From positions 10,294,501 to 10,358,500 of the forward strand of contig OZ019759.1 of the NCBI GenBank assembly GCA_947034885.2: 64,000 nt of DNA, written 5' to 3'. Below, piece by piece: positions 16,326-41,813 of this stretch (position 1 is the first letter of the stretch; the number at the start of each line of letters is the position of its first letter). Under the pieces are notes generated by a model that worked only from the letters and a program-made list of their open reading frames with translations, ran no database searches and had not been told where the DNA came from. This stretch comes from Thuidium tamariscinum. Its lineage: Eukaryota > Streptophyta > Bryopsida > Hypnales > Thuidiaceae. Both the position numbers and the translations under genes were made by a program.

Positions 16326-19300
16326 ATGGACATTTCCCCAGCCAAAACCATGGAAGTGGAAACAATATTTGAAACGCCTTCCTCTCAAAACCAGAGACAA
16401 CCAGAGATTGAGCAAGGAGAAGGAGAAGGAGAAGGAGAGGAAGGAGAAGACATGGACATTGTCATTCAAGACTGTGAGGAGGAGAAGGTGATGTCAGAGG
16501 AAGAACTCCGGCATATTCAAAAAGGTGATGTTGTGAAGCTTTTGGGACAACTTCGGATGAAGCCTGAAGAGGTATTTCGAATGCACATACCATTGTGCAG
16601 GCTTGTGGCAATGCCAATGGTCAGACCCGCATTGGCATCTGATATCCTGTAGCTAGAGCAAGAGTTTGCAGGTGGAGGGTACCGAGATGGTGCTGCGGTA
16701 TTCTATGTGTCAGCTACAAACGAAGATGGGAACACTAAAGAGTTCATCCAACAGGAGATGGATAGTTGGGACCCCATTTGGAAGGAGAAGAATGAAGTCT
16801 TCAAACAGAAGTTCGAGTCGAAGCCAGAGCTTCAATTCTTGAAGAACTTGAAGATCTTCATTTGCGATGGGAACCACAGACGAATTACTTGGATGAATTA
16901 CATCTCTAAGCACTCGGAGGAGCACTGCAATGTCGATTCTATCATATTAGACACGAAAGGTCGGAATGAACTGGTCATGCAAGTCATGCATGACGTAAAC
17001 AAGTAAGTTCTTTCTTTCATATTGTTTTTATTTTTCAAAAAAATATTGAATTTGAATGTTGTATTTTCTTGGAGGTAGTTTAGATCTTCAGCTTATATTG
17101 CATTGATTGGCTTTCAGGTCTGTAGAAGACTCCCACGTGAAGACGAACTTGGTACACACCTTGTACCAAATTCAGAAGTACGGAATGCTACCCATAGCAA
17201 AGTTTGCAGCTTTACTTAGGCCTGCAGAGAGGAAGAGGTGCCTTGAGCACAAGGTCACTAAAAAATGGTATTCAATTCAACCCAGGGTCTTCACCTCTTT
17301 CATCTTCCGGGTAAGGTCTTTCAACTTGTTTTTGATAAATATATTTTTATTTTAAAAAATCATTAATGTCCATATTGACTTCACATCTATCTGGGTTTCT
17401 TGTGCAGCAAGAAATTTCACAAGCTACAGATGCAGCTGTAAGAAGGTACATGGAGGCCACACAAGAGACTGGAAGTGTACCACTACAGGCAACCGAAGCA
17501 ATGAGGTTGGGAGCAAGGGAACGAACAAAGGCAGCCATGGTGAAGATGTTCAAATTGCTAGCGGTGGCCAACCCAGCGAACGGAGTGGACTTCCTTAAAG
17601 AGGTACAATTCAGTAATTAGTCTCCAACTTCACTTAAATTGTTCAAAAGACAGTTCAAATCCATATTGAAAAACTAACTGAAATCTTCTTGTAGGTGGAA
17701 AAGCATTGGGGCAATTACGAGGTGCCTGAAATGACTTTGGAGCAGCTCCAGTTGGTCGCCACCTGCAAGATGACTGCAAAGCACAAGACAAAGATACTTC
17801 AATGGTGGAACTCTTCTACTCTTTCACGCGAATCAAGAAAGTTGCCACCAAAACCTGTCTCCGAACTCTTACTTCCTCAATTTCTGGTGAAGTGCACTTG
17901 GTATGCTAGGGTAAGTGTTCAATATCTTTTCAAGAGTGTTTTTGATATTAGGGGAATTCCAAATCCTCTATGATGCCTTTAAAATGGCATCAGTTGGGGT
18001 CCTTCATTGAATTTGAAGGTGTACTTAGCAAAGACGCACTCTACTTTTTTCCCGTAATTTTCATGTATTTTGACACTGCAATTTTTCTGAAGGTAAATGA
18101 TTTTAATTAGATAACTAGACTTTAGGTACTACTTATCATTTGAATTATAGTACCATAATCGGTTTTTCTTGCTAGCGACAAACAATAAACAATTAAGTAG
18201 TAATGGTTTATGAGTTTCTCAACTTATTAGTGAGAATTTGTTTTCTTAAATATTATAGGTACTTTATATTCTAGAAGTTTGCACAATCTAATTCCTTACA
18301 TTGAATAATAAAACACTTGGTAGTTGTTTTCATTAAAATATTTGGTAATACAACTGAACTTTTTGACTATATCCCATTTTTCAGATAGAAGATGCTACAG
18401 TGGAGTTCTTCGACAAAATTGTAAAGGAAGACAACCTTTCCATCGACTACAACACAAAACCAGAACCAGAGCGGCTACCAGAGTACATAGAAGGATGGAG
18501 GTAGAAGATTTGGGAACATGGCTTCATGAATTACTTCAAGGGATAGAAGTACTTCAAGAGGGGCCAAACTTTTTCATCTCACGAAGGCTCTAACGATGTG
18601 GTGCACAGAGTCCTTTATCGGTATGTCATTTTCTTTACTACTTGGAATTTTGTGGCATCATTGTATACTTTGTAATTATAGAAATTCTATAGCATCTTCT
18701 ACTTCATTATAAATCTTGAATTTGTATTGTCTTGGCTACTTTTCCACCCTTCAAAGGACTGCAATTTACAACTTCCATGATATATTTTGCTTTTACTCTT
18801 TCATTTTGAGATTGAATAGTGCTCCATATAACTCATTATGATTGAATTACAGGTACTTCAAGTTAGAGCTTGAAGCAAAGGGGGCCATTGCAAAATTGGA
18901 CATCCCTCAATTCCTTCCACGCTTCCTTGACCGCAACTCGCCTTCATGCATATTTAGCCCACATCAATTGCGCACCTACACTACTACTCATCTCTCTGGC
19001 ACGGGTTGATACTTGGACTGCACACTAGAGTTCACTCATAATTCGGAGGTTGAGCTCAGGGCATTACAGGAAGGCAAGGGGATAGATTTGGAGGCTGTTG
19101 ACGAGTTCATCGGCATGGATGATGATACCAGGAAGAGGGCCATCAACAAGAGGGATGCACTGGACCGAAAGAAAGAAGTGAAGAATCAACTCATCGTGGA
19201 GGCCAAGGAGAAAAAGCAGGCGGAGAAATCAGCAAAGAAGGCGGAGAAAGAGGCCGAGAAGGCGGAGAAAGAAGCCGAGAAGGAGAAGAAAGAGAAGACT

Positions 19301-21369
19301 AAGGCCAAGGGAAAGAAGAAAGTGGAAGAGAAAGGGCAAGTCTTAGCTTCCTCCACTGTGGATCAAACACAAGGCGGAGTACCAAGGAAAGTCACCATCT
19401 CACAGCTCACTGAAGATGTCATTTCACGAGTCACACAAGCCATGGTCCTCTCCGACGATGATGTGCCAGAGATTGAGGATTTAATCCTTAATATTTGCAT
19501 TGAGGACATCGCCATGGATATGGAGGACAAAAGACAGGGTGTCTACGACGAGGTCTTGAAGTACTTGGTTAAGGTGATCTCTTCGAACATCTTTGCTAAA
19601 ATTTATTTTACTTGTTGTCAATGATATGAATGCTATGTACCAAAGTTGCTATAATGAAACATTGAAGACAAATTTCTATGTGGTCCACAATTACATTTTG
19701 TATTTACGATTTTTTGTATTTGAAAAAATTAGTAAGACAACAGGCAGAATTTACAATTCCGTCGGATCCGACGGAATCACATAAACCGCTATTTTGTTCT
19801 GTATTTCCCTACTCAACATTACCCACATTCATATGGTTTTGTTTTCTCTAGAAATAGTTGAACATATTGACAAATGTAATTTCTTTTTCAGCTCAGACTT
19901 TTATTAAAATGACCCTAAAATTCCTAATGTTGTACTAAATATTATGAATCTGCTTTGAAAGATAGAAAAGTATGCAATACTAATATAATGAAATTCTATT
20001 GAAATATGCTTTTGCAGATGGCAGTGGGCAAAACTCGCATGTTTGAAGGTGTGGCAAATGCAAGGGCTGGTGTTGATGTCATCTTTATTGACTGTCCAAA
20101 GAACTTGCCTGTACCAGGCATTTCTCTTACGTCGAAGGAGGTGCCAAATTGGAATGCGGATTTAGAAGCTAATGCTTTGCAATCCGCATGCACCTTTGCA
20201 GTAGAGCATCTGCACGATGATGGATGCATCATTGTGTTTCACTCCTTCAGCATTGCATCTAGGGAAGATCTAGCAGGAGTTTGCGAAGCATTTGACTTCA
20301 AGAAGAAGAAGGACTGGCTAGGCATGAACCGCATGCATCTCACCTCGCCAATGGACACCACAAAGACGGTAATTTCAGTACAAATGCTTCAGTTTTTGTC
20401 ACCTATTTTCTTTTAAAATTCTATTCATTGATCTCTAATGTTCTTGTGTCATATATGTTGCAGACACAGAAGTTTGGAGTCACTCTCCTTGTCAAGGACC
20501 TCAAAGCAAAAGGCGAATCCAAATTTTCTTTCAAGCGTACTGAGATGATGAAGAAGGCTGGGGTGGATGTCGAGAATGATGACATGCAGATGACATCTCC
20601 ATGAACGGGAAGAAGCCATGGAGAGGCCCACGTGAAAAAGATCCAAGGTTCTTCACCCTCCTCCTTGAAGCCACAAGCAATGAAGGCGATGTCATTGTGG
20701 ACTACACGGCATCCACAGGTTTGTCTTCAATTTTAATATTTCACACTTCTATGTCATTGTAACAATTTTGTCACCTCTCTAACACATTTTCATTACATGA
20801 ATGCCCTAGGTGCTTGCATTTTGGCTTGTAGAGGAACTGGCCGCAACATTCTAGCTTTTGAGGGGGACAAAGATGTTTTCAATACCATTTTGAAGCCCAT
20901 GAAGAAGTCATCACCCTCAATGGCAGTGGCTCCAACCCCCGAGACAACAGTGGACTTGACAATGGATGTGCAAGACACGCCTATTGTGCCTCGCAAGTTT
21001 GTTCGCAAGGGAAAATCTAGTAAGTAAGTGGAAACTTCTTTCATTCTTTATTATTTTTCTTCATATCACATTTGCAAAGACTAATATAATGTCTTCAATT
21101 TTTGCAGAGGTTGTGGATTGATCTTGAGAGAGGTCATGGAACAAAATCAAAGGCTTGTGGTTAGTCCAGAGAAGCCTTTCGAGCTACCACCGTATGCTGA
21201 GCAGATGGCAAGTGCCTTTGCAAATTTTGGTTATTCCAAATCAAAACGACGCAAAGACACTTACGCCTTCAATGTCTTACAGTTTATAGATGCTTCTGCA
21301 TCTGAGGGACGGGAGTCCTCAGAGTCCTCTACAGGGTCAGATTCAGTGACTGAGTCCACAGCCACTTAG
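16326..21369 (+). pseudogene. Gene 2: ParB-like / coiled-coil / DNA methyltransferase-like protein, copy 1
   Basis: Ten exons with GT-AG borders: 16,326-17,002; 17,118-17,310; 17,408-17,602; 17,695-17,910; 18,385-18,620; 18,853-19,573; 20,018-20,368; 20,464-20,718; 20,810-21,023; 21,108-21,369. If intact it would be near 1,100 residues. Exon 1 has a ParB-like segment with ICDGNHRRI (about 16,863-16,889), like the DGxHR motif of ParB/sulfiredoxin-fold proteins. Exon 6 has a Lys/Glu coiled coil. Exons 7-9 resemble a beta-class N4/N6 DNA methyltransferase: a motif IV-like IDCPKN (20,090) and, later, GDVIVD...AST-GACILACRGTGRNILAFE, matching the SAM-binding motif I. Lesions: TAG 16,650, TAG 18,502, TAG 18,544, TGA 19,008, and a 19-bp deletion near 20,584 relative to copy 3. 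The canonical catalytic residues are altered, so methylation activity is doubtful. Confidence 0.7.
19756..19777. repeat. Perfect 22-bp palindrome, gene 2 intron 6
   Basis: ATTCCGTCGGATCCGACGGAAT, with no mismatch between halves. The identical 22 bp occur at 51,968-51,989 in the same intron of copy 3. Confidence 0.85.
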
Positions 21370-22040
21370 ATTCTTGAGATTGACTAATCTCTTGAATCTT
21401 ACTATTGTATATTATTTGGATTGGATTTGGATTGGATTTGTGTGTTTTATGGCTACTTCTGGAAGTCTCAAATTTCTCTTTCTATTTATTTGATTTTTGT
21501 TTTGAAAACATCTAAGGCAATGGCTCTTGCTAGTTTTCCCAAAACCTACACCAAAAATAAATAAATAAATAAATTTTGAGGCAAGAAGGCAACACGTACA
21601 ATTCCATCAGATCCGACAAACCCTTACATATTGACCATCTAATTCTTTCTCTTCATTATACATCTTAAAATCAATCTTCTTTCAACAACACCTAGATTGA
21701 CTTATTTAGTGAATGAGTTGCATCAAATTAGAGTATTTCCAATGCCTTTTGTGATTTCAAGGTTTGGGTATCCATGAATTTGATCTTTGCTGTTTTCATT
21801 TTGCCTTCACATTCCTTAATTTATCTCTATATAAAAAAGATTTAATATTCTAAATTAAAGCTAATCGACAATATAAACCTAAGTGCTTTGATTCTCACAA
21901 TTAGACTTTATATCCCTACTCTTGTGTATACAATGTCCATGATCATAGGTGTATGCAAAGAGAAAATGAAGAAGAAAACAAAAAGTGACTTCTGTAGTCA
22001 CATCTTTGAAATAGACTTCATATCTTCTTTGTCGCCTAAA
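21370..22040. other. 3' flank of gene 2 inside copy 1
   Basis: AT-rich and non-coding. An AATAAATAAATAAAT run at 21,557-21,572 may serve as a polyadenylation region. A degenerate copy of the element palindrome (CATCAGATCCGACAAA) is at 21,601-21,620; the copy 3 version (50,111-50,130) is nearly perfect. Confidence 0.5.
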
Positions 22041-22198
22041 CGTTGAAAGTCCACGATTATAGGTACTAAACTCTAATTTTTGTTACCCTAAAATCCACGA
22101 TCATAGGTGGTCAACTCAAATTTTTTTCAAAATAAATTTCCCGCTCACAAGCTCACAGGCTCACAGGCTCCTGCTCCCCCGCTCGCCTGCTAGCAACC
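22040..22198 (-). repeat. Right terminal inverted repeat of copy 1
   Basis: The reverse complement begins GGTTGCTAGCAGGCGAGCGG and continues with GAGCAGGAGCCTGTGAGC-type units and 'cacctatgatcgtgga'. It is nearly identical to the left end of copy 3 (49,543 onward) and similar to the end of copy 2 (43,949). Confidence 0.8.
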
Positions 22199-23917
22199 CT
22201 GAGTGAAAGTTCTCTTCCATGACAAGGATGTAAGGAAGTTGGAGGACCGAATAGGTGAGTAATTTGGTTTAATTAAGGACCTTCAACACTAATTGGAGAG
22301 GAAGTCTGAGGAGGTTATTAAAGGGAGAAGACTCTCTTAAATGTGTACAGATACCCTCAGACAAATTATCTGGAGTTTCATAGTCAAGTCCGGTCAAGAT
22401 CCCGATTAGAATCAGACTGGAATCCAGATCCGGATCATGAGTCAAAACCAGATGTTACTTCTCCTCAGCGATTTAAGGAGAAAGGAAAGATTCCAAGGGA
22501 AAGGCTATAGCTGCAATCAAGGTATCAATCAGTAGGAAGCAACCAGCTATAGAAGGATCCACCAAGCTTGTGGATTCCCCCAAAAATGGATAAAAAGGTA
22601 GAACTTATAATTAGCAACTAGAGTAGGTAGAATAATTTTAGGAGTAGATGACTTTGAAAGTTTGTGATAGGTAGAAAATAGTTAGCAAGTTACATTTGAG
22701 CCGGATGCATCTAGACCAGACCGGATCTAGGTTCATAGGATCTGAGATCCACTTTTGGTGGGGGTTTTGGATTCTAGTGGAAGTCAACAAGCCCAAGTTG
22801 TAAGGGAATGTAACGTGGCATTCTCTGGGCTGGTGTTGATTCCCCTTGTACTTTTAGGTTATTCTTGTAGTTGTTTAGTATTTGAATCCAGATTGTAGTT
22901 GAATCCGGTGTGCATTTTGATATCTTGTTTTCGCAAGTTTTTGGTGTTGCAAATACAAATCAGACTCTTTCTGATTCACTTTGAAGTGGACTATGTATAC
23001 TTGATCCTGTTATAGGCTTATTGGGACGATTAGGATTGCAACCTTGTGTAGATAGAAAGTGTGCTCGGATAAACTCAGTATCCGGTCTTTGGAATTGAAG
23101 TGAATTTGGTTTTGATAGGAAGTTGGTGTGGGATCTCTCAGTATAGTTTGGAACAGGTCTAGAAAGTAATCATTAGAGATAGCCACTCGTAGAGTTTGGG
23201 TTTGAGATTGGGAGCATCCGGCCAAATGCCAACTGAAAAGTGATGAGGTCTCTTTAGATGAAAGAAGGACCCGTGAAGGATATAGCTCTCCTATTTAAGC
23301 TGCCGCCCTTATTCTGCCAAAATTTAGGACTAACTCGGTAATCTGTCATTGTAGTAATTGTTAAGAGCAGACAGGAACGCTTGCATGACCTAGACCAGAT
23401 CCATTCCAGGCTTGTTGTGAAGTATTCCGGTCTGGTAGGATTTATCTTGTTGTTTTTCTTCTTCTTATGTTTATAATAGAACTTCTGACACTTTAAAACT
23501 TGAAGGGTAGGAGTATGCTTCCTTCCTGAACATCCAAAAGAGTGGATCCCTCTTGTTACAGAGGTTAAACTTACACTTGGTGACTTATTTAGGAACGAGA
23601 CCAGATTACAATTTCAGGAAATTGGGACAGAAGTTAGAAGAGCCCCAGTTTCCGGTCTAAGGTTCCATATTCAAAAAGAGTAATAAGAAAAATCTAAATA
23701 TGTGGGTATAAGTGGAGAGTAAACTCTCTGCATTCAGAAGTGTGATCCTGTTCTGGTTAGAAGTAAAGATCAAGAAATGCTTAGACCGGGTCAGGATTAG
23801 TCTTTTGCTTGGGTTTTTGTTGTGACCACCAATATAATTTTCCGGTCAATAGTAGACTTACAAACTAAATCTCTTGGGAACGATACACAAGTCACTTTAA
23901 GGTTAACTTAGAGCATT
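22199..23917. other. Retrotransposon-like debris without coding frame
   Basis: No sustained open frame. The sequence is rich in CCGGAT/CCGGTCT motifs and resembles in style the 3' region at 27,700-28,850 (for example 'gtggcattctctgggctgg' against 'ctggcattccctcc'). I read it as the 3' part of an LTR retrotransposon-like element, but could not define LTR ends. Confidence 0.35.
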
Positions 23918-25140
23918 CTAACACCTTAAAGAAGGAATTGTGCTTTCCTGTGCTACAACACTGTGAGCACTTCCAAAAAAAGACCAAAGCATTTTACAAC
24001 CATTGGTCATTGAGGGGTACTTAGAAACAAAATACCATAGTTTACTACTTTTAAATTGTGTTGCACACCCATCATTCCAGACGAAGTGGCGTTTGGGAAC
24101 TATATTGTGCATCATCAAGTAATTCCAATGCAAATTGAAACAATATTGAATCATTTCAGTATCATGTTGTTTGTCTTCCATGATATAAAAATGGTACTCC
24201 GTTAACAACCAGGTATCTTCATCATAAGGATTAGCATTAGGGTTGTGCCGCATACAAATATACACCAAAATACTAATCCGATATGAAAATTAGTGCATAC
24301 TTTGGACTTCATTTTGAATCTCAAATGTATAGTTATCTACAAAGTCAACAATAGAGACAATGCTATCTGATGGAAATGACCTCAAGCAATTTTTGAGCTA
24401 CTGGTCTTGCCATCTAGCCACGAAATTATGTTGTACAAAAAATTGTAGCTTAGGCTTGAAGTATTCAATGAATTCAGCAGGGGATTTTCTTTTGTGTATG
24501 AGAGTCAACTTCTTGGATATTTTCCCTTTTTTAGAAATTGTCTCTTCTAACAAAAATCTCTTTCAATCAACTAAAGTGTCCTCGGACTGTTGTAATTCGT
24601 ACTCACAGAACAGCATCTTACGATCCACTCCACACAAGGAGGATTGGCCAAAAAGGCATTCAAGCTTGTGCCATTCATCAGATTCTCCCTTCGGACATAC
24701 AATGTTCTTCCATAATGTAGTTAAACAAGAGAAAATTTCATAGAGGACAATACACTTACCTAATGCATGCTTGCAAACTTTTCCAAAATTCCTCATGTTA
24801 TAAATAGCTATCTACAATTCATCTGTCTCAACATGATAGATGCAACAACACGTGTTGCGCTCTTTCATTGCCTTGATGAAAAATGGTTTCAAAGTTTTAA
24901 AGCTCCTCAGCCCTATTTCAACACCTTGGTTTTCAGCCTCGAACTTCAAAAAGAAACTCACATGTAAAATTTTCATCAACAGTCCACAATGTTATGGACT
25001 TCATGCACATAGCCATCTGGTTTTTGGGAAAGTAAAGGCTGAGAAGGAGACAATGGACATTTATGATAGGGAAAAGAAAACTATATGGAATCAAGTCCCT
25101 AATTCCTGAGGTGAAGTCCTTGTCACAGTCTGAAAATATC
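23918..25140 (-). pseudogene. DDE-type transposase-like gene, C-terminal part
   Basis: Minus-strand fragments share a pattern I recognise from unclassified transposase-like proteins of mosses and lycophytes: FKTLKPFF ... CCCIYHVE, then WHKLECLFG, then FVDNYTFEIQNEVQS, then RHFVWNDGCATQFKSSKLWYF and LWSFFGSAH. The last two normally precede HGKGxxDGxGA, but that end is frameshifted or lost here near 23,930. An exon probably begins after TTTTCAG near 25,127. Several TAG/TGA stops and at least one frameshift are present. The N-terminal part appears to lie at 29,565-30,048, so the 25.2-28.9 kb block interrupts the gene. The exact superfamily is not determined. Confidence 0.5.
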
Positions 25141-25239
25141 AAAAGAATGACATAGGAAGATAGTTAGTAGATTAGTTCAAATTTTCAAAATTTTTAGTTT
25201 TAGATATGGGGGAAGAAGACATTTAGAGTCTTTTACACC

Positions 25240-25560
25240 CTAAGATCCGTCCAACCGGATTGACCAAGGGCGCTTTCCGGATCAGATTCATGAGTTTCCG
25301 GATCGAATGCTCTCAATGTCCGGAATGGATCTTTACAATGGGCGGAACGGATCTTGGATGGATCGGGTGCAATCCGGATCAGATCCGGATGAAGTTCCGG
25401 AAGAACAGCACCTACGAGTCTACGCCGCCACCTACGAAAACTAGCGTAACGGTCTAGGAACGTCACACCGTTCCAATTTGAACCGGGAACGCCGTGTACC
25501 GACTGGTGTATAAACCCCTCCACCCCCACTTCATTTTCCCTTTTCGATTTGGCAAATCTT
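25240..25560. promoter_or_regulatory. TCCGGA-rich 5' region of gag-like element
   Basis: Clustered TCCGGA/ATCCGGAT motifs (25,270-25,405), then a TATA-like GTGTATAAACCCC at about 25,506, followed by a purine-rich leader up to the ATG at 25,689. This looks like an LTR or promoter of the gag-like unit, inferred from order only. Confidence 0.35.
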
Positions 25561-25688
25561 GGTACGCTTGTGTATAGGTTTTGGAGCGCGTATAGAGAGA
25601 GAAAGAGTGGTGAGTAGTAGAGATCGATTCCGGGTATAGTTTAGGGTCGGTGTTGACTGCGCCGATAGGTTCCGGCTTGGACGGAGAG

Positions 25689-27679
25689 ATGGCTAGTTCC
25701 TCCAATCCGAGACGGATGGTGGTTACCGCCAAGGCGATCTCGCCGGTAATCCCTTCCAATCCGCAGCATTGAAAGGAGTTGGAGGATGATTTAGTGTTCC
25801 TAGGGTGTGAGGGTCTGATCCAGCGCCCTTGGAGCGTCAAGAGTGATGAGATGGTGCAAGAACTCCTCACGGGAGTTCCGAATCAGTATTAGCTGACGGT
25901 GAGAGGTAGACCCGCCACATGGACACCGGAAGTCTAGGCGGAAGTGTACGGGTTTGAGAAAACTGGATTAGGGATGGCTCCCCGAACCGATAAGTTTGGC
26001 GTCTCTAGGTTCCGAAACCCGCCCCACTCGAAGGACGGATATGCCGTCCCGAATTGTGAGAGTGATCGGCATAGGCGGATGTTGGAATTCCTGATTCCCA
26101 TCCTCTATCCTGAAAAGACTATCGGGCGGGTCACCGTCACGATAGCGAACACCATTTTTGGGTGCTTCGAGAAATAGATAGTGAACTGGAGCCTAGTCAT
26201 CCAGTACGTAGTCAACAGACTATTCGAACACGTTTAGAGGAACAAGACCAGTACTATCAGTATCTACTTGTTCCATCTGTACCACCAGAAGGCTGTGTTG
26301 AACGCGCCGGAACAGCTCACCTATGAAACTGGACTTCAGATCTTGAAGTACGACTTGACTGGGGAGTTGGAGAAGGATCCAAATGATTCGGATGACAACC
26401 CAGTGGAGGAAGAACCCCGGGAGTAGCAACCAACCAGTCAGCCAGAACGAAAGCCGAAGCGAAAGAAGGTGACTACTCCAGATAAGAGAGGAGTTCCGGA
26501 GTCGGATCAAACCAGATCCTCTCAGGGGAGGGAGAAGAAGACGGATCACTTTGACGTCATCACCCGACACACCATGATGGCGCAGACTTTCGAGGTCTTG
26601 AGGGGCTGCTCAAGCAGATCTCCATCAAGCTGGGCGGAGTCAAAATCAAAAACATTCCGGAAGCCTTAGACCACCTTCCGACTTCGGAGGTGTTACGGAA
26701 GAAGGAGGAGGAAATCTGAAAGTGGAAGGAGGAGGTCCAAATCTAGGAAGATCGGATCCGGAGAGAGGAAGAGCGGACCCGGGTGGCTAAGGCGGGTTGG
26801 AAGAAAGAGGAAGAAGCGAGGGATGGGCTCCAAGGTTAGGTAACTTGGCTGGAGAGTGACCTCAGCATCGCCAACGGCAAGGTGAGCGAGGCTACCACAC
26901 TGGTCCACAACCTGCAAGGGTTAGTGACCCAACCGACGGATGCAGTGGTAAGGGCCCAACTCTTTTCCGCTCGGTTGATGAAAGAGGAGAATGTCACCGC
27001 ATCCAAGATCCTCACCATCTTGGTGGACTACCAGGCCAAGATGGAGGGAGTTCTGAAGGAGATGAGGGCCTTGGTCGGGTCCCTCAATCTGGAAATGGGC
27101 AAGGGTCTTCCGAACCTGCTCAACCAGCAGGTTTACATTGAGTTGAGCCCCGGAGCGCAAGTGCGGATGTCGACAGATTGGAAGCTGCTCGGAGACTCGC
27201 CGGTCATGAAGAACCTTGTCGAACTTGGACCGGATCTGACCACAGCCGGACTGTCAACCACACCGACGGATCCGCCCACAAAGAAGACAACGCCCCGGAT
27301 TGATCTGGAGATTTGGATGAAGGCTCTCCAGAATTCGGCTAGGGAGAATCCAAATCGGTTCGCGCACATGAAGGAACCAGAGAAGGTTCCGCACAACACT
27401 CCGGTCATCTTGGATGACTCCGACAAGGAAGACGATCCACCTGCCATCATCCGCATCGAAGGTGGGGAACCGAGCGGATTCAAGGGAATAGAGGAATCGA
27501 AAAGCTCGGAGGTGAAATCGGACGAGACTTCAACGAAAGAGGAAAGTGCAACGCCGCCAACCCTGATTCAAAAGAGGCAGACCCGGTCCGCCACCAAGAA
27601 GACCCCAACCGCGAAGGCAACAGCGCGGAGGCATTCGGTTCCGTCCGCGGGTACTTCTTCAAAGCGAGCACGTAAATAG
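25689..27679 (+). pseudogene. Gag-like ORF of a non-autonomous retrotransposon-like element
   Basis: A long frame starts at ATG 25,689 and is cut by in-frame stops, nearly all TAG plus TGA at about 25,770. It shifts frame near 26,600, then stays open from 26,882 to TAG at 27,677. The product would be about 660 residues. It is highly charged, with a Glu/Lys/Arg-rich putative coiled coil (26,690-26,900), an acidic stretch (ILDDSDKEDD) and a basic tail (KKTPTAKATARRHS ... KRARK). I see no protease, reverse transcriptase or integrase motifs downstream. The lack of enzymes suggests a gag-only LTR element or domesticated gag. Its GC content and TCCGGA-rich flanks differ from the neighbours, consistent with insertion into the transposase gene around it. 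Confidence 0.45.
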
Positions 27680-27699
27680 GGCAAGATAGGGTAGTTAGT

Positions 27700-29560: not shown

Positions 29561-29564
29561 GGTT

Positions 29565-30048: not shown

Positions 30049-30373
30049 CTTCTAAGTCTTCTTTTGCTTCACCCTAAGACGCCCCTCCATTTCACATGCA
30101 AAACCCATCTTACTAAACCCTAAACCCTACAACGCTCAATGCCCAACCACAAAGTATGATATTCAAACCCTAAGGATCCTAAATTGGTGCTTATGCAAAA
30201 GCCAAAGCCTTGACTAAGCCCCTAGAGTGGAGCCCAAACCCTGAAGACCTAAACTAGTGTTGTAACCGTCGCAATGGAAAACCTAATGCCTTAAAATAAA
30301 AAATTTACTCTAACTATTGCGGATCCTATTCAAAAGCAAATGCACTAAAATTGTAAAATCAATCTCAAACTTG

Positions 30374-30835
30374 CAACCCTCATTGAAAGTAAATGCCCTT
30401 CGATTCTGAACTTAGAGTCAAAATTAGGACTGAAAGCATATCCTTACCAATTCAAAGCTTATCGTGAATAACTCCAAATGAAGTGCCTGTGTGTAATTCA
30501 AAACCTTGAGAGACAACCTCCTCAAATGTCCACAACCCCTAAACCCTAACCTTCACAGAATGATAGCATCAACGCGCAATTGCAACCCACACTAAGAACA
30601 AACTCACAACCCTCACTGAAAGCAAATGCCCTTTGATTCTAAACTTGGAGTAAAAATTTGTACATAAAAGAAAATCCTTACCAATACAAAGCTTATCGTG
30701 AATAACTCTAGACGAAGTGCCTGTGTGCAATTCAAAACCTTGAGAGATAACCTCCCCAAATGTGCACAACCCCTGAACCCTAACCTTCATAGAATGATAG
30801 CATCAGCGCGCAATCGCATCGAACAAACAAATGGC
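30374..30835. repeat. Two-copy tandem duplication, period 233 bp
   Basis: CAACCCTCATTGAAAG at 30,374 recurs as CAACCCTCACTGAAAG at 30,607. Similarity continues through TTATCGTGAATAACTC and AACCCTAACCTTCA to 'atgatagcatca'. It is non-coding. Confidence 0.75.
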
Positions 30836-30839
30836 TCCA

Positions 30840-32060: not shown

Positions 32061-32066
32061 CCTTAC

Positions 32067-33917
32067 CTTCAGGGGCTCAAATAAAGGCACACGAACATCC
32101 GATATAACTTCAATGCCGCCTATGGTCTACATGTCTTCACTTTGTCCACTTAGTAGTATTGTATCAGTTGACTTTACACCTTGTACCACACCCAAAACAT
32201 TGTTCTATTCTTGTAACAATACTTTCAGAAAGTCCTCTACTTGTGCTTCAGAGGTTTGCGGTTTTGGGTTACTTGGGCCACTTCTGTCGCCCATTTGCAC
32301 ACCAATTCCAAGACTAGTGTCACCTGTAGAAACATCGATGTTCGCAGCATTGTTTGGGACGGACAAACGGGTTTGTTCACTGACTAGACGTGAAGGCTCA
32401 AGAATCAGAATGGCTTGTAGTATGGGAGTACTCGCCTGTGGGATAATTTGAGGACGATTTTCTTAAGCTGTCATAAATGCCTTCAACATATCCTCCATCC
32501 ACTTCTGGGAATCACCAATTCTGCCTTCAAGACGGATCACTGTGTCCTCTATGTCCACAACACGGCTACGAACGTTATTTACATCCACCCTCTTTTGAAG
32601 GCATGCTTTTCTTTTCTCTAGCTGATGCCGTGTGTACTCCTTAGCCACTTCGTTTGTGATTTTAGCTTGGTACGGTTTACAATTGTGTTGTAAAGTCTAA
32701 TGGTGACAAAACAAACAACTGTGCACCCCAATAAAGTACATTAGTGTATATGATTTGACTAATCACGAGGTAAGGATTAGTACCAACAATATTCAAATTA
32801 AAAATGGCAATGAAGCATACGGAAATTCAGACGAGCTGCTGACTTTGTTCCATTCAATATAGGTCGGTGTGAAAAAACCTTGAATAGCATCCATCCTATT
32901 ATGGCATTGCAGCTAGCAAAACATGGGTCTCACTCGAATGAATCTTACTTCCTATACATCTTACAGACAATGACGTCTCCAATATTGAACAACGCATACT
33001 ACCTACTTATGAGGTAGTGCTAACCAGCTTGACGATGGCGTCCTGTTCAATTAGCTTCAGCTAAGCCACTTTCGAGCCCTTGCCCTGTGAAATCGAACGC
33101 ATATGTTTAGACAGAACTTGAGAATCCTCAATGCTATGTTGCCAGATAAGTGTGTTCCACTGCTCCTAAGTGACATCCGTTCGTTTCAGTTGAGCCGCAT
33201 CGATCAAAGTGTTCAACCTCCAACATGTGGTGATTAGAACTTTGGTGACAATGGGGCCGATCCATTTCTCACTGAGTTTGTAATACTGATCCAACATGTC
33301 CCACTCTGTAATCAACAATTCCAAGTTTAAGCGTCCATGTCACATATACTAGCTGTCTTCAAAATTCATCACTCACATAAACATACGCAAACAATGTGTT
33401 GAGCCTGGAAGATTTAGATCATATTCTAGAAACTATTCTATCATGAATCGTGGAACAAACAATTTTCAGCCTATAGTGCATTCAAATTCGCATAATGTTT
33501 CACGCATACTACTTAACTTCAGTGAAATTGACGAGGCATGTTGTACGTACCTTTGTACAATTGCTTGAATAGATGTGACCTCAACGTGGATGGTTGGGAC
33601 TCCCAGTTTGCTGTGGGATCAAGACTCTTTGCGTACTTCTTAATGTCATCCGCCAAGCACTCCTTCATATTGCTCCAAGAAAGACCATTGACGTCTAATG
33701 TCACAGGCTTCTTCATAGCTTTTCCTTGGAATTGTCGACGTGCCCGCTTGGGCTCAGAGTCACTGCTGCTGTCATCATTGTCTCCAAAGACATTTTCATC
33801 TCTGGCCGTGTAATCGTTGCTACTATACAAGTGCACATAAAATGTTATGGATCGCCAAAAATTAGGTATAGTCCTTGGAAGTGACACACATCTCAGACCA
33901 CCAATAACAAATGTCAA
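32067..33917 (-). pseudogene. Coiled-coil / DNA-binding-like gene, possibly En/Spm-associated
   Basis: Three minus-strand blocks. About 33,917-33,519 is acidic (SSSDSEPKRARR), followed by a Trp/Lys-containing segment GLSWSNMKECLADDIKKY. About 33,310-33,000 reads YYKLSEKWIGPIVTKVL, then a WNTLIWQHSEDSQVL segment and SKHMRSISQGKGS, with TAG stops. 32,648-32,067 has a coiled coil (RVVDIEDTVIRLEGRIG), a TAA and two TAG stops, and ends at CTGAAG|GTAAGG (donor at 32,066). The order W...nR/SISQGKGS then coiled coil recalls the plant Transposase_24 (Ptta/En/Spm) type, but the match is by eye and weak. It lies downstream on the same strand as the phosphatase-like and ParB-like genes and may belong to the same mobile unit. 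Confidence 0.3.
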
Positions 33918-34878
33918 ACATGTTGTACAATGTCAATATGGACGGTAACCATCAACTTCTATAAGTGAGTCTGGCTACCACTCTGAGCCTACGTAGGAAA
34001 CAAATGAGGGACTTCGCTAGCCTCGTAAAATGTGGTGTTTCACAAAGGTACAAGTCACTCAAAACATTTTTATGCAGCGAATGGTGATCACTATATCCTA
34101 CCACAATGCTAGGATACCATTTCTATCTAAACTTTCTTATTTCGTACAACAAAAAACACTGTAGAATAAGATAACAACCTTGTCACAGACATCTAATACA
34201 CCTAATGCTTACACATACATGACTTCATAAAAAAAAAGGAGTGGCCACTTACAAAAACTTTTCTATCACGAACATGCTATGGCTCCAATTTTCATGACGT
34301 TTTCATGAGCACTAAAACACTCTCAGAATTCCTAAAGTAAATCACTCTTGGAAGTTATAACACTATATTCATTAAAATGAGAGTATTCCATTTAAATGAA
34401 AGGTCTTGAATACACTTTTTATCAACAAATATACCTAGAAAATTGGGTAGTTGAATTAAACTCCAATCATCATTGTAGCATATTCATAAGGATAATAGAG
34501 TGAACAAAGTCATTACCATGAACAAAAACTCTTGTATTTATAGTAAGTCAAGTATTTTCTAATTTTTTTCACATCACATTCTAATTTCTAGAAATCGTCG
34601 TAAATGTGTATGTATTTGTAGTGAGTGTGATTCACTCATGTAATGTATACTATATGACGCCTAAACAATGCAATAATATTTTTTACTAGTATTTAGCTTT
34701 ACAATATAGATAGATGCTACATGTCCGATTGGGTCTTAATTGTCGCCACGGCCTTTAAACTCTCCGGCCCATGACTATAACCATCACGCAATTTCTTATA
34801 TTGTCAAAGCTCTTGTAGCTTTTGCAACTATATGAACTACCGATCCCATTCATCTTGCATTAGATTAGTGTCTCGGCT
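33918..34878. other. No supported gene
   Basis: AT-rich spacer between two minus-strand genes. I see no repeat or coding frame worth calling. Confidence 0.3.
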
Positions 34879-37348
34879 TCAGGGATCTCCATTGTGTGAC
34901 TTCGTTGTCTTTACACTCAAGACCCCTAGTCGCATATTTGGATGTAAGCCACTATGAGAACGCACAAGAATCTTCTTCTCCCTTGATTCAATAGGTAGTA
35001 GACAGTTTGGTTTCACCGTAGGTTCTTGGAGATGGATTTCCTCATACAGCTTCCTTTGTGTCAATTTCTCGGAACTGGAAGGTGACATCTGCAATGTGAA
35101 AGGATCCCTCAACCGAAGAGGTGAAGAAGAGCATGACTTCAAAAGCAAAGCCATCCGACTTGGCGGACTATCCACTACTCCATCGTCCACGGGCATCACC
35201 AAAAAATCCATTGTGGAGTTGGCTGTGGCTGTGGAACAAAGGAAGTTCCCAGTACTCAAGATTGCATTTTGCCCGTATTCAAGAAAGGAATCAATAGAAG
35301 CTGAGTATGGAAGGGTGACTTTTTGGACCGCATGAACATTCGAATGAACGGTCTGAAAACAAAAAGATTACAAATAAAACATCAAGATTGATATACTTTT
35401 GGGTGAATATACTACCTAATAAAGAAACATAGATAAACAACCTAAAGAGAGAAAAAACAAAGAAAGGTCGAGCTGAGTTGAAGAGGAGTAAAAACATATT
35501 GAAGAGAAAACATATCTCAGAATTTTATTTAGAAATAAGTCCGTACATATTGAGCATGTCATGTGAAAAAATTCTAATTTTTTTCACATGACATTCATAT
35601 TGCAAATTCAAAAGCCAGTATACAATTTAGGTCGGCTCGAGCTGAATTGAACACAAGACTCCATATATCATGATATATCACTAGCGAAGCATCTAGAAGT
35701 CTGTAGACCCTATCTCAAGCTCCTTGAATGCTTGATGACGTCCACTAGCCTATTGAATTTCTTCCAATTCCTCTCATCGCACAACATTTTGTGCCCCATT
35801 TTCCCGGAACTATTATCCCGAAAGGACTTTAAACCATTGTCGCGAGCGAGATGGAGCCGTTGAAACCAAGACAAAAGGTTGTCAAGGAGGAACATGTCTT
35901 TTGGACCGTTGCCCTTGTTGGTCCACGTGTCCGAGAAAACAACATTCTCTGGCTTGTTGAGAATGTGTTTGACCGGATTATCGTCGAACATGACCGCATT
36001 AGTGGGCTTGAACTTCCCTCGGTTGCTAGTAAAAAGCTGACTGAGGTCTTTCAAAAACAGCTCCTTGTTTGTGCCTAGTTCCTTGAATGCTGTGACATAC
36101 CCGGAGCTATCCCTGCACTTGAGTGTAGTGTAGGAGTTTTTTTCGAATACAAAATCAGAGTACTCTAGCCCATTGAAGAGGAATAAGCAAATTTCTTTAG
36201 TAGTGGGCCTTTTCATCAAGCTCCACACTGAGATGTAGGCAAATAGAGATAATTGTCGCAAAAACTCCACACAGTGTGGACGGACATAAACTAATTTTGG
36301 TCCCACAAGCGCGGGGGTGGTTGCCGAATGTGGCTGCCTAGAGTCTTGAAGAGACTTCGGAAAACCCTTGGACTTTGTATCCTTGGTGACATAGAGAATC
36401 CCATTCAGGTCCAGGACGACGTGTAGCCACTTATCCACCAACCTGGAAATCAATGGGACCGGAACAACCTCCAACAATTCCCCATGAGAACATGCAGGAT
36501 CTGATCCCTGCTATCAAAATGAAGAGAGACAATGCTAATCACTAAACCAGCACCCTTAATTGACTTCTCTACTAAAAAACCTGTCAAACCCAGATATCAT
36601 CAAAGTAAATGAAAAAAGATCACAGAAGCCATCCGCCAAGTAAAATAGAAATCATGCATTCACTTCACTAACCTCAACAAGAGGACCCATCATTATATTC
36701 CCATCTTCCAAGGCAACAGGGTTTAAAATCTCCAATTCCATTGTTGTGGCGCTAGGAAGTTCTATGCCAACATGAGCAATTTCATTGGGAAGAATAACAT
36801 TATCTTCACTAGCGGATGGCTTGGAATCCATTGTAACAGGCGCAATGACATTTGCAATGGTGCCCTTTGAAATTTCAAAATCAATGCCATATGGATCACT
36901 CATGACATTCATAGTGCCTACCATTAAAAAGTGGTCAAAATAGAACGTGAGAATGACGTATAAGAATTTCTCTTAAAATGAGTGATATAATACAAAAATT
37001 GATTTTCAAAAATCAAAATGAAGATCCCGATGGTTTTTTCCACATTGGAGATCCGTATAACCAAAAAAAGTCCGACTCCTAAAATCCTATTGACTACGTG
37101 AAGGCTATGATACACATTAGGTTGAGCCGACCTAAAATGCCAAGCACCACATTAGAATTTCAACTGGAGGCACCTGCATATATAGCCGAGTTATCCAAAT
37201 GAGTAGATGCGTCCTCAATCTCAACAAGGACTACATTCACCATTACGCACTCCAAGGGAGTTGCAGCCACCACATCCTCGTCAACATCCATTTGAACGGT
37301 GTTGGTTGCTTCGATGTCATCATCCAAAGGTGGCAGCTGAGTTGTCAC
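34879..37348 (-). CDS. FCP1/NIF-like HAD phosphatase-domain gene
   Basis: Minus strand, several exons: about 37,348-37,160 (acidic), 36,924-36,652, 36,477-35,710 (255-residue open frame) and 35,259-34,879. The large exon has the NIF/FCP1-type HAD fold. VVLDLNGILYVTK (about 36,424-36,386) is HAD motif 1 with Asp-Leu-Asn in place of Asp-x-Asp, common in plant NIF-like proteins. VYVRPHCVEFLRQLS follows, then ISVWSLMKRPT, then MFDDNPVKHILNKPENVVF as the last Asp-Asp motif. Such proteins dephosphorylate Ser/Thr of RNA polymerase II tail or other substrates; the Asn substitution makes activity uncertain. The large exon is intact, unlike most genes here. Palindromes of the TTTAGGTCGANTCGACCTAAA type occur in its introns (37,116 and, degenerate, 35,625), linking it to the ParB-like gene upstream. 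Exon borders are approximate. Confidence 0.55.
35556..35594. repeat. Short perfect hairpin
   Basis: ATGTCATGTGAAAAAA and its exact complement TTTTTTCACATGACAT, separated by about 7 bases, in an intron of the phosphatase-like gene. It has two 16-bp arms and a terminator-like shape, but there is no reason to assign termination in a plant nuclear gene. Confidence 0.6.
37116..37138. repeat. AGGTCGA-type palindrome, degenerate
   Basis: ATTAGGTTGAGCCGACCTAAAAT in an intron of the phosphatase-like gene; one half-site is close to consensus. Confidence 0.55.
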
Positions 37349-38330
37349 CTCAGTATGTTTGAGAGGAAGGGGGGGTTGCTTGCACTATCTTTGCATACTC
37401 TCACTTCTAGTGTAGGTATCAACAAGAGAGGGCAATACAGTTGTTGCGACGAGAGCAAAAGCTGATGCCGTTGGTACAGGTGGCGCAAAATCCATGGGTG
37501 TTGGCATTAGAACTTGGGGATTCGCCGCTGAGGTTCCTGGTCAAGGAAGACCTGATCCAAAATTCAAAAATGACCCAAAAGACCCAAAACCTACACTTTG
37601 TATCATCAAGGATGATGCACCTTGCCTTGCAAGAAAAGAGCTGATTGGAGTGATGCCTTGCAAGTGGTTGACGATGGCTGCCAATGTCACTTGATTTTTG
37701 GCATTATTTGAAAAGATCAATTGCTTGATTTCATCAAGCCGCTCCCCTTGCTTGGCATGCAAAGCAAGATTCTGAGCGCGGTCTTTCTTCCGGGACTCCC
37801 TGATCTTCTCTAATTGCACTCGCATGTCTTCGTCGTCGTCGTCTCTTCTCCTTTTCTTCTGTGCCCTCCCCCGGGCAGGAGTGCTTGTTGGTTGTACATC
37901 CATGGGCTCACTTGATAACGTGGACGATCCCCGCACACTCTTAGAAAGGTTCACAAGTGTGCAGTGCTCCTCGTTTAGAAGAAGCGGGTCTGTGACATCC
38001 GGCTCATCCTCAGTGTGGCCATCGTCATCCGACAATTCTTCCACCTCTACTTCAGGTACCTTCCTCCTTGACGACGGCGCCCGACATCGTGACGAAGAGA
38101 GTGTGGATGAGAATGGGGGCTTCCGTCGATGAAGTTCTTCATCTACAAAATAACCCTTTGGAAGAAGGTCGTCTTGGTCTAGGGATTTGTCCACCTCAAC
38201 AATTTCAGTCCAGTGTTCAGACTCATCAGATGTCCCAACGGCAAAGACTCTGAAGCCCATCATCTGCAGATGAAAAATAATTTGCATAAAAGTAGTATAT
38301 TAGTTCATTAAATATTAGAACCTCTAACTG

Positions 38331-38441
38331 TTTAGGTCAACTCGACCTAAAACAAAGCTCATCAAAATGAACTTGAACTAAACATTTAACAAGTATAAAA
38401 ATAGGAAAAATTCGAGGGAATTAGGTCAGGTCGACCTAAAA
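38331..38441. repeat. Two AGGTCGA palindromes in ParB-like gene intron 2
   Basis: TTTAGGTCAACTCGACCTAAAA at 38,331-38,352 and ATTAGGTCAGGTCGACCTAAAA at 38,420-38,441, both between the exon ending at 38,450 and the exon starting at 38,274 (minus strand). Confidence 0.8.
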
Positions 38442-39846
38442 CAACGTACCATGGTAACGAAGGTTAACTTTGCTCCCCCAAACACTAACAGAATGTTCAA
38501 TGATCCGAGTGGAAATTGTCGAATTGAAGGATATGCAAATAAAACTCCATACGGAGTTCTATATTGTGTATCCTAAACGCAATCTCATTGTACATCTGGG
38601 GCTTATTGAAGACGTCTGTATCAAGTGCCCGGTATGTCTTATACGACAATTGTCAGTCCACTGTGGACTTGTCTTGAAGGAAAATGAGGTACACATTTTC
38701 TACCGCCTTGTTATTATTTACAGAGTAGTCTCCCATTCTCTCATTCTTAGCTGGCGAGTACTCAACGCTATCCATTTTGTATTCTTTCAAGACAGGATTT
38801 TGATGAATGAAGGTCAACACTTGGGTTTGCTCAATGAAATCCACGCAGATGAATAACCATCTTGGGATCTCCTCAAGTGTAGGCTTTTTCATCTCCTAGA
38901 AAGAGGCCATCACCGCGGCAAAATAAGTCTGAAGCGGGGTGCACTTCCCCTTGTTTAGAACCATAGGGGTGTAGCGGAAGTCAATCGCTCCAAGCCCAAT
39001 CCCAGGTACCGTATCAGGCTGCCAAGCACCAGTTGGCCAGTCATGGTGCTTGTCCGTCTCAATCTCATATGTTTTGTAATGCGCTACAATTTGTGGCTTC
39101 ACAATATTGTTATGGCGCTCAAGGAAGGCCTTGAAGAATTGTGCGGCGTATGGAGACAACTCCTCTACTATCTTGTTCTTGGATCTAGTTTGCTTGGCGT
39201 CCTTCCAATAATCTTCACCCGGTTTTTTGATAAGCATGTTCATCGTAGCACTGGTTACGGAGCGACTGGTCTTGAACTACGTCCATTTCTCTACGTTCAA
39301 ATTGTTGAATGCATTCAGCAATCCCAAAGAAGGATCTATCATGTGGAGCTCCCTCTTGACCAAGGACTTTCTCTTGCACCGCTCAACCTAGTCTTCTGCC
39401 GTATAGTAGCTCTTAAGCACTGAAGTAATCATCTTCATAGTCACCTTTGGGTACTGCAAGTTCTGTCTCTTTGGATTTATGTGAAGAATGTACTGCGCAA
39501 GCTTCTTCAAGTCGTCATATGAAAGATTGCCCAACCACTTGAAGAACTCATGTGTTAAGCTCCCATTCTCTGACTTCCACCTTGACTTCTCCTTGGATTT
39601 CAACAGAGTGTCTAGGTCAATCAACTTTCTATGCGCAGCACTAGAAATTACCTCACTCCAAAGGTTATAAATGTCATCTGGTGCCGTTATTATTTTTAAC
39701 TCGTTCATTATTTTGAGTTTCTCATTGGCATCTTTCCCTCTTGATGACTTCTATGATTTCACCACGTCCAACGTCGTGAAGCAGACATTCATTGCTTTGA
39801 CGAATTTCTGTTTGAAGAAAGTGATAGATTATTAGTTTGAATACCA

Positions 39847-39946
39847 AATTAGGTCGACTCGACCTAAAAACTTTGCCTATTTTTGAACATACAGACATCA
39901 CGTTGGACAAGTTTCAATAGAATAATTAGGTCAAATCAACCTTAAT
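39847..39946. repeat. Two AGGTCGA palindromes in ParB-like gene intron 1
   Basis: A nearly perfect AATTAGGTCGACTCGACCTA at 39,847-39,866 and a weaker ATTAGGTCAAATCAACCTTAAT at 39,925-39,946. They fill much of a 118-bp intron. Confidence 0.8.
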
Positions 39947-41426
39947 TTACATACCTTAAATTTTACGGTGTTTTTCTTCGTATCAACGTTTTGACGGGAC
40001 GACCGAAGCTGTGCCGACTAGTGCAGCATCCTTTGGATTTTGTAGACTCCCCATGTTAATCCAGCACATTCTTGCTCCAAGAATGTTAGTAGACCAAGAG
40101 GGCTTTAGAGCTACAAAGTGGTTGACATGATTATAGTAAGCAGAGATTGTCGTCAGGATTTCATTGCTGTCAAACCACATAATGTAGCAGTTCCATTCAC
40201 GAAAATGCTTCAGGATGGCCTCATCTACATTCCTTTCAACCATCATTTTACTTGTTGACACACTGTGCAACCCATTCACAATGTAAAATTTGCCCTCCCT
40301 TAGTGTTTCCCAGTCCTCCTTTTTTGGCTTCTCAGTCTGGTCCACTAGCATGACACATAGAGTCTATTTTCCAATCTTATCTAACATGTGCATCAAAAAG
40401 TGAAACATATCCTCAACAAGCCGCTGCTTGTGGCTTCGGATGTTCACGTCAGCTGGCATAGCTATGAGTTTGTCGATCGGCAACTTCTTCTTTTGATCAA
40501 TTTCAAAAACATATGCATCACTGCAACAGGCCCAATAGTTCTTATACGCCTTCGTCAACTCCTTATAGTTAACCACACGCTTAGGATCATGTACAAAAGG
40601 CACATTAGTCACAATAGACATGAAGCTAAGGTTAGGAGTTTGGGATTCACTTTCATCATTTTCAGGGGTCTTCTGAGCAGAAGTAGACGCAAGATTACTC
40701 TTTTGCCCCCTCGTCGGAGGTGTTCCAGTTTGAATTCTTTGTCTAGTGCCACGACTTTGTTGTGTACCTAGTGTTCCTTGGGAGCTCTGACCTTCAATTA
40801 AACTTGGAGGGTCATGGGAGACAAATTGAGCAGCTGTCTGATTCTTCTGTAGATCCGTTTTTCCCTTCAAGATAGCGAAATCAACAAACAGCTATCTGAG
40901 TCGATCGCAGAGATTCTTGCCACTAACTTGGGCTCCTCTCTTATTCTTCTAGTATCCGGTGTCCACCTTCTTTTCCAATTTTGGAATTTCTCCACTGTAA
41001 GGTGAGTTGTCGAGACTGTGGAGAAAGTTGGATATGTAGAACGGAATCTTTAGAGAGTCAATCACCAGCATGAAATGATATTGCTCTTCGTCCTTTCTCC
41101 CAATCTACGTGGTCACATAGTGGATCTTAATTATTGTTCCAATGTCAGGGGAGACCTCCTTTATTTTTTCTTCGTAGGAGATTGGGTAGAATGGTAGCTA
41201 ATCTTTGTACTTCTGACAAAATCAATATTTGTGTATCATCAAGATTAGCATGAGGGACCAGCATTCAACTACTTCGGGATCCTTTAGCTCCCAGTACTCC
41301 CTTTCATTGCTAAAGTCATCTTCGTCGTCGTCGTCAGCTGCAATGTTCATCCGCTTAAAAAATTGCTTGAGCTTTGGAACTTGCTCTTCCATCCTACTAG
41401 CAAAGGCCACGATCTTCAATTAGGTA

Positions 41427-41813
41427 ATTTAGGTCGAATCGACCTAAAACAACACATAGGTGCTTCTCATCTTCAACGTCTCTCTAGTTTAAGGCTTTCT
41501 TTGTACATTTATAAAGGGTGAAGTTCAAATGGTTTGATTTTTCATTGTCTATTTGTATGCATAACAAAATGATACAAGCTTGAGTATTTTAGGTCAATTC
41601 GACCTGAAATGTTGATTCTGTGATGTTCTAGTTCATTAGTCTTGGGGAAATTATGTTGAGTTTGTTGAAGGACTTTTTTTTAGTTTGTTGATTTCATTGT
41701 TTATATTCCGTAAGTGGATGCTGCTTACTTGTCTTCTGATAAAACGGACTACCGCTGCCATTCAAATATATATATGTACATCTAAACGTCACTTTAGGTC
41801 AATTCGACCTAAA
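41427..41813. repeat. Three AGGTCGA palindromes upstream of ParB-like gene
   Basis: ATTTAGGTCGAATCGACCTA at 41,427-41,446, TTTTAGGTCAATTCGACCTG at 41,587-41,606 and TTTAGGTCAATTCGACCTAA at 41,793-41,812. They lie just 5' of the first recognisable exon, in a 5' intron or promoter region. Confidence 0.8.

Follow-up and report, generated by a model that had tools for sequence, protein, structure and literature searches.

Two-gene transposons of Thuidium tamariscinum pair a ParB-like gene with family-specific palindromes

A 64,000-nucleotide stretch of the genome of the moss Thuidium tamariscinum (hereafter, the window) contains two otherwise different transposons, unit 1 and unit 2, each of which pairs a ParB-like gene with a palindrome of its own. 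Both units are two-gene transposons, in which a transposase gene and the ParB-like gene lie head-to-head, and the palindromes are repeated in the non-coding DNA of their own elements. This pairing had been proposed from the letters of the window alone (the sequence-only reading), and it was upheld by the enrichment of both palindromes genome-wide. As to function, we lean toward a role analogous to that of VANC proteins, in which the ParB-like gene would encode an accessory protein that recognizes copies of its own element by their private palindromes and counteracts silencing.

Two-gene transposons with private palindromes

The genome searched comprises 363 Mb in 19 contigs and includes the window. 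It gave 65 exon matches to the GRAS family, against none in any of 14 control genomes, and these, with its matches to cytosine-5 DNA methyltransferases, fit a plant. Numbers of matches given below as scored refer to the best-matching subset of longer genomic candidate lists. The two-gene layout is seen in a copy of the unit 2 element of the window's own family (family I) on C2. This copy encodes a DUF7869 protein of 951 amino acids (L080:506–3358; PF25273, E=1.6e-41) about 13 kb from its ParB-like gene, with family I palindromes on both sides. Of the DUF7869 transposases, 48 were scored (from 948 candidates); in 38 cases a ParB-like gene is no more than 30 kb away (median distance 14.7 kb), and all 38 pairs are head-to-head. 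Similarly, a unit-1-type ParB-like exon lies within 20 kb of 55 out of 66 scored unit 1 transposases (of 1009 candidates), at a median distance of 7.5 kb and head-to-head in 54 cases. For the unit 2 ParB-like gene itself, at least 150 genomic matches were scored from 387 candidates. Unit 1 looks like a Mutator-like element (MULE): it has imperfect terminal inverted repeats, and the profile search with its transposase gave SWIM at E=0.11, short of the cut-off. A clean target-site duplication was looked for in copy A of unit 1 and none was found.

The unit 2 palindrome, TTTAGGTCGANTCGACCTAAA, is present in nine copies in the window at no more than four mismatches (at 35626, 37116, 38331, 38420, 39848, 39925, 41428, 41588 and 41793, within 35626–41813), and nowhere else in the window at up to six. 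Eight of the nine have at most three mismatches, for which 100 shuffles gave an expectation of 0.00. All nine fall outside the exon pieces assigned to the ParB-like gene (39986–40363 and 40367–40891), which belong to the ParB-like/methyltransferase-like gene region on the minus strand at 35713–41813. As a control for genome-wide counts we used each motif read backwards, which is itself palindromic and has equal composition. At up to two mismatches, TTTAGGTCGANTCGACCTAAA occurs 789 times genome-wide, compared with a single occurrence of the control. Moreover, each of 30 family I loci, the window copy among them, has 2 to 6 sites at up to four mismatches within about 3.4 kb, whereas none of 30 unit 1 loci has the family I palindrome in the same scan.

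The sites also map to their own genes. These comparisons took in part of the mapped ParB-like gene places and the exact sites listed. Of 56 such unit 2 sites, 54 have either a ParB-like gene of family I or a DUF7869 transposase nearby; the distance to a family I gene is at most 5 kb for 17 of them and at most 20 kb for 43. Among the sites listed, none of unit 1 had a unit 2 gene within 5 kb, and none of unit 2 had a unit 1 gene that close. Across the 30 family I copies, mean pairwise conservation is uneven: identity is 0.81–0.82 in the site columns (somewhat inflated, because these columns were picked by motif match), 0.77 in exons, 0.61 in non-site intron and 0.51 in non-site upstream DNA. 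Thus, the sites of an element have a half-site in common, although the DNA separating them has lost most of its similarity among copies of the family, a pattern that a trans-acting reader would enforce.

In unit 1, a perfect 22-bp palindrome, ATTCCGTCGGATCCGACGGAAT, lies at 19756–19777, amid two open segments of the ParB-like gene. Sites with the core GTCGGATCCGAC were found in copy A at 7131, 14514, 14835, 15281, 19761 and 21606 (0–2 mismatches) and at matching places in the inverted copy B at 50114, 51973, 56181, 56798, 57036 and 62869 (0–1 mismatch), all of them outside the exon pieces assigned to element genes. The first site of copy A (palindrome 7126–7147; four mismatches to the 22-bp form, one in the core) lies amid open segments of the transposase gene. 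The last (21601–21622), located 3′ of the ParB-like gene, is degraded, with six mismatches to the 22-bp form, and has lost its palindromic form; in copy B its core is intact. Three further two-mismatch core matches (12148, 26501 and 27265) lack palindromic arms. Genome-wide, the core AAGTCGGATCCGACTT at up to one mismatch occurs 221 times against once for the backwards control, and for 44 of the 50 exact sites listed a unit-1-type ParB-like exon is no more than 3 kb away. Of the remaining six, two (C2:11164200 and C5:288311) are near a unit 1 transposase and four are unexplained. At the level of loci, 23 of 30 have the core at up to two mismatches within about 1.5 kb, and 19 have it exactly; these locus tests left aside unit-1-type families at about 66–73% identity.

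Six of the unit 1 core sites (14514, 14835, 15281, 56181, 56798 and 57036) each sit in the middle of a longer, near-perfect palindrome. In copy A these are three 93-nt palindromes (14482–14574, 14803–14895 and 15249–15341) that lie upstream of the ParB-like gene and have the unit 1 core at their centre. In 19 of the 30 unit 1 loci (L009–L038), the upstream palindromes are near-perfect hairpins of 58–110 bp built on the core, with arms of up to 55 bp. Their outer arms vary among copies yet remain largely complementary, which suggests compensatory change or arm-to-arm conversion.

The sequence-only reading held that the palindromes are kept in introns. We examined their placement in ten unit 2 relatives with readable exons (L040, L052, L070–L076 and L078, with L071 and L072 near-identical; L069 and L077 were left out because their exon 1 is interrupted). 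Coding sequence makes up 59% of the length, but only 4 of 91 own-motif sites are coding and 87 are non-coding (binomial p 2.5e-29, sites being treated as independent). Intron 1, which has GT...AG ends in nine of the ten loci (the acceptor of L074 is unresolved), holds at least one own-motif site in all ten. However, although 16 sites are in intron 1 and 10 in intron 2, as many as 59 are upstream of the ATG and 2 follow exon 2; sites are also found on the 3′ side of the transposase. The sites therefore occupy non-coding DNA in general, and introns are not special: the avoidance of coding sequence stands, and confinement to introns does not. The accompanying idea, that intronic sites let a protein tell element DNA from transcripts or cDNA, is not supported, since avoidance of coding sequence explains the pattern and no such discrimination is needed.

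The same distribution bears on two other explanations. With 59 of 91 sites upstream of the ParB-like ATG and others upstream of the transposase, the palindromes could be operators or enhancers of the head-to-head promoters, and the accessory protein an ordinary transcription factor that leaves silencing unaffected. Promoter control would not call for the sites within the two introns or on the 3′ side of the transposase, and we consider such autoregulation unlikely. The other explanation is that extrachromosomal element DNA is tethered or segregated in the manner of ParB, or that the palindromes act as hairpins in RNA. The protein motif does resemble ParB, and the palindromes are able to form hairpins, most extensively in the long upstream arms of unit 1. 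Yet this seems very improbable: the majority of unit 2 sites precede the gene instead of lying in transcribed introns, and all are strand-symmetric, for which reason an RNA-hairpin function was set aside.

Co-variation of the palindrome with the ParB-like protein

If the ParB-like protein reads the palindromes, the two should change together, and the sequence-only reading had named co-variation across families as its test. Ten further loci of unit 2 type are 54%, 43–44% and 30–38% identical to the ParB-like piece of the window. In these loci the best repeated palindrome occurs 3 to 14 times, whereas shuffles gave no more than 3. Taken alone, L070 is a weak case (3 copies, with a maximum of 2 in 25 shuffles), but L069 has 6 copies of the same motif. 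The half-sites are TTTAGGTCGA in family I, TTCAGGT in family II, TTCAAGT in family III and TTATCTTCGA, TTATCCTCGA, TTATCATCGA or TTATCGTCGA in family IV, and all unit-2-type palindromes fit a single two-fold symmetric plan of 21 bp. Genome-wide, the family III palindrome TTCAAGTAGNNNCTACTTGAA occurs 77 times at up to one mismatch and its backwards control not at all, and the family IV palindrome TTATCTTCGANTCGAAGATAA occurs 1140 times at up to two mismatches against 5 for its control. All 13 exact family III sites are within 3 kb of a family III gene.

When every motif was counted at every locus, counts were family-specific, yet related motifs cross-matched at a loose threshold: the short family II motif also matches family I and III sites, and the family IV variants match one another. 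The half-site codes are therefore unequally far apart. The same gene, at about 50% identity and in split exons, was also found in two contigs (L081 and L082) filed under an uncultured Synechococcales genome, AVDCRST_MAG81. Each has five sites of the palindrome TTCAGCTCGANTCGAGCTGAA (half-site TTCAGCTCGA), again on the 21-bp plan. Because the gene lies in split exons, these contigs probably represent eukaryotic contamination of a cyanobacterial metagenome-assembled genome.

Over 14 loci, the distance between half-site matrices correlates with the distance between ParB-like domains (Mantel r 0.83, p 0.0001). The correlation persists when each family or subfamily is represented by a single locus (r 0.79, p 0.010; 8 loci), so the palindrome and the ParB-like protein do co-vary across families.

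The transposase might instead be the reader, and the palindromes its recognition sites inside the element or enhancers of transposition, with the ParB-like gene a passenger. Sites do flank the transposase gene as well: in L080 they are at 84, 250, 416, 3733 and 3856. On the other hand, transposases of families I and II are about 80% identical and yet their sites differ, while the ParB-like domain is about 53% identical. In the scored set, 24 transposases have at least 86% identity to the query, and their partners are ParB-like pieces 70–84% identical to that of the window (family I). Of the 14 transposases at 78–83%, 13 pair with ParB-like pieces at 50–57% (family II) and one with a piece at 43% (family III). 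The accessory protein thus appears to diverge faster than the transposase. Moreover, the same kind of site accompanies two transposases that have no evident relation to each other. Taken with these data, a transposase reader is quite unlikely.

The accessory protein and its proposed role

The C-terminal domain of exon 1 carries the motif F(Y/M/W)(I/M)(I/V)NGQHS in unit 2 types and (I/V)FICDGNHRR in unit 1, and from this motif and the layout, judged by eye, we read it as ParB-like. The second half seems to be a permuted (beta-class) DNA methyltransferase, in which, again by eye, a motif IV position is followed by a glycine-rich segment resembling a cofactor-binding site. In PDB, a composite of unit 1 matched only two entries, both of the adenine methyltransferase DpnA, in register at both motifs but at insignificant E-values (1.4 and 1.5), and two arginine methyltransferases are weak matches to the unit 2 profile (E 0.13 and 0.16). 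At the motif IV position thus placed, unit 1 has DCPKN, and unit 2 types have DFR(N/S/T/Q/Y), DGRQ, DTRQ or DLR(I/E); DPPY is absent in all members read. Neither phage tblastn (no significant match) nor viral contigs yielded relatives of the protein.

We estimated the ratio of nonsynonymous to synonymous substitution rates (dN/dS) in 14 comparisons, in 8 of which dS is saturated. The other six gave 0.04 (dS 2.3, near saturation), 0.08, 0.12, 0.13, 0.14 and 0.37. The highest value comes from one very close pair, 0.12 from the methyltransferase-like exon, and 0.08 and 0.13 from the unit 1 ParB-like exon in two pairs of relatives. Based on these six comparisons, the protein, its second half included, appears to be maintained under purifying selection.

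A methyltransferase-like layout that is kept and constrained could mean that the fused enzyme is active and places N6-methyladenine (6mA) or N4-methylcytosine (4mC) on the element's own palindromes, either against silencing or in favor of transposition. The authors of PMC12477816 propose binding together with epigenetic modification for a similar protein, and several of our palindromes have GANTC or GATC at their centres. However, GANTC is not conserved in families II and III, and no DPPY is seen at the presumed motif IV in the members read. Because that motif is missing, self-methylation, one of the roles suggested by the sequence-only reading, is less likely, and we regard self-marking as improbable. 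Among the roles suggested there, self-recognition or anti-silencing gives the best account.

We therefore return to the VANC-like reading, which we hold to be somewhat more probable than its negation. The accessory protein, probably as a dimer, would bind a two-fold symmetric site private to its own transposon family. With such sites repeated through non-coding DNA, the protein would coat copies of its own family and no others. Host silencing would then most likely be kept off the coated copies or lifted from them, leaving them open to expression and transposition, in the way that VANC acts on VANDAL elements. From the sequences we infer the domain names, the identity of the protein as reader, its dimeric binding, the inactivity of the methyltransferase-like half and the anti-silencing outcome. 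In keeping with this reading, the host genome has 27 matches to cytosine-5 DNA methyltransferase exons.

A number of observations weigh against this reading. The ParB-like and methyltransferase-like assignments have no significant match in Pfam, NCBIfam, PHROGs or PDB; the closest ParB-like profile match is DUF6551 (E=0.019 at best, in two of nine members, with no PDB match), and single exons gave unrelated PDB matches that are likewise insignificant. The ParB-like domains of unit 1 and unit 2 show no significant similarity to each other (hhalign probability 1.6%), although the 18 columns that align are the two motifs themselves. No ParB-like place was found near 10 of the 48 DUF7869 transposases and 11 of the 66 unit 1 transposases. 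Unit 1 sites are sparser, and 7 of 30 loci are without the core within about 1.5 kb; in a neighbor of unit 1 type with 63% identity (in L080), neither the core nor a repeated palindrome was found in 2.8 kb. When unit 1 loci L009, L010, L017 and L030 were searched for palindromes de novo, 2–3 copies were found against 1–2 in shuffles. As this did not exceed the shuffles, the unit 1 motif rests on the core found in the window and on the genome-wide excess of 221 over 1. Finally, shared descent would produce the same co-variation, which alone does not favor the ParB-like protein over the transposase.

Sequence-specific escape from silencing has, to our knowledge, essentially one worked example, VANC. 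DUF1985, which we take to be the VANC-type domain, had no match among our Pfam results, and VANC was compared by description only. VANC proteins bind short family-specific motifs in introns and in intergenic and terminal non-coding DNA of VANDAL elements (PMC5735166) and cause loss of methylation over these elements in Arabidopsis (PMC5735166, PMC10398659). As far as the available parts of these papers go, both systems have a transposon-encoded protein, a family-specific motif that is repeated in non-coding DNA and co-diverges with it, and an element with its own transposase. They differ in that our targets are palindromic (the VANC21 motif is YAGTATTAY) and in that the ParB-like, methyltransferase-like protein looks unrelated to VANC. 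Here, moreover, the protein is paired with two different transposases, one of them DUF7869.

The protein class itself is already known, because PMC12477816 describes ParB-methyltransferase accessory proteins of algal transposons: a ParB-like and DNA-methyltransferase accessory protein in the Sola1 transposon of Ectocarpus and, according to that paper, similar proteins reported from green and red algae. To that extent, the system is not undescribed, as the sequence-only reading had supposed. In the literature we found neither the private co-varying palindromes, nor an occurrence in a plant, nor a loss of the catalytic motif; nothing in the papers searched, a set that lacks most subscription papers, joined a protein of this class to family-specific palindromes. 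In the available text, the Ectocarpus protein shares with ours the two-domain idea, the residence in large transposons and the location on the strand opposite to the transposase. Its methyltransferase, however, is predicted there to make 4mC or 6mA, whereas DPPY is missing here. The transposases also differ, being MULE-like and DUF7869 in our case; the Ectocarpus protein is described in that text by its domains, without mention of target sites.

A further parallel is offered by bacteria, where ParB/parS systems and ParB-methyltransferase fusions combine palindromic targets, a DGxHR-type motif and fusion to a beta-class methyltransferase. All three features seem to recur in our elements; unlike the bacterial systems, these are transposons with introns, and no significant sequence match links the two. 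TnpA of En/Spm is likewise a transposon protein that binds repeated sites in its element and opposes silencing, but its sites are subterminal, whereas ours are dispersed and internal. It is plausible, as a tentative scenario, that a prokaryotic-type ParB-DNA-methyltransferase fusion lost catalysis and became a reader of self versus non-self for transposons. It would have been adopted by two unrelated plant superfamilies, with protein and palindromic code co-radiating into at least six half-site codes, of which one belongs to another organism.

The question addressed here is how a transposon can evade silencing while the rest of the genome stays locked. For several families of one genome, and for one other organism, protein/site pairs are now at hand with predicted binding sites, and the algal accessory proteins (PMC12477816) gain a concrete kind of target to look for. 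If our reading is true, these transposons would have an anti-silencing system that runs parallel to VANC with a different protein at its core, and with about two thousand sites in a single genome.

Elements of the window and further observations

Within the window, unit 1 is represented by copies A and B, mutually inverted, and by a decayed copy C; unit 2 lies between A and C. Copy A (4915–22201) is MULE-like, with imperfect terminal inverted repeats of about 100 bp. Its right end, ...GCTAGCAACCCTG, is common to copies B and C, and its left end, placed by resemblance, is approximate. The transposase-like gene (5453–9673, minus strand) has open segments at 7667–9673, 6257–6835 and 5453–6253, the last with a SWIM-like motif. 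The ParB-like exon (16326–17003, plus strand) has the ICDGNHRR motif, and the methyltransferase-like part (20003–21024, plus strand) has DCPKN in place of the DPPYN of adenine methyltransferases. Copy B (49540–64000, minus strand), of which 49547–64000 is the inverted match of copy A, extends beyond the end of the window and has a ParB-like open segment at 54463–54945. Copy C (43946–48679, minus strand) is a diverged relative.

The window copies are damaged: the ParB-like exon of copy A has one in-frame stop, and the ParB-like frame of unit 2 is interrupted. An upstream continuation of the unit 2 element (41600–43700) adjoins copy C and resembles DNA beside family I genes elsewhere. Unit 1 copies thus seem to have split unit 2, the upstream part of which reaches at least 43700. 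Its transposase is likely located beyond the window, as the nearest DUF7869 match is at C11:10372284, past the window end. An open reading frame of NIF type (C-terminal domain phosphatase-like; 35713–36510, minus strand; E 6e-13) is flanked by the unit 2 palindromes at 35626 and 37116, and was possibly captured by the unit 2 element.

The window also contains an inverted repeat at 13108–13470, with 180-nt arms that are 98% complementary and separated by 3 nt. A 279-residue open reading frame at 26840–27679 belongs to a different repeat, for which 27 of 40 scored copies are on C11. C11 makes up 17.5 of the 363 Mb and is rich in copies of both units as well, a load that might be as on a sex chromosome or an otherwise degenerate one. 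On C6, between 24.94 and 25.65 Mb, unit 1 genes and unit 2 transposases recur as four near-identical sets about 0.2 Mb apart, as in a tandem segmental duplication.

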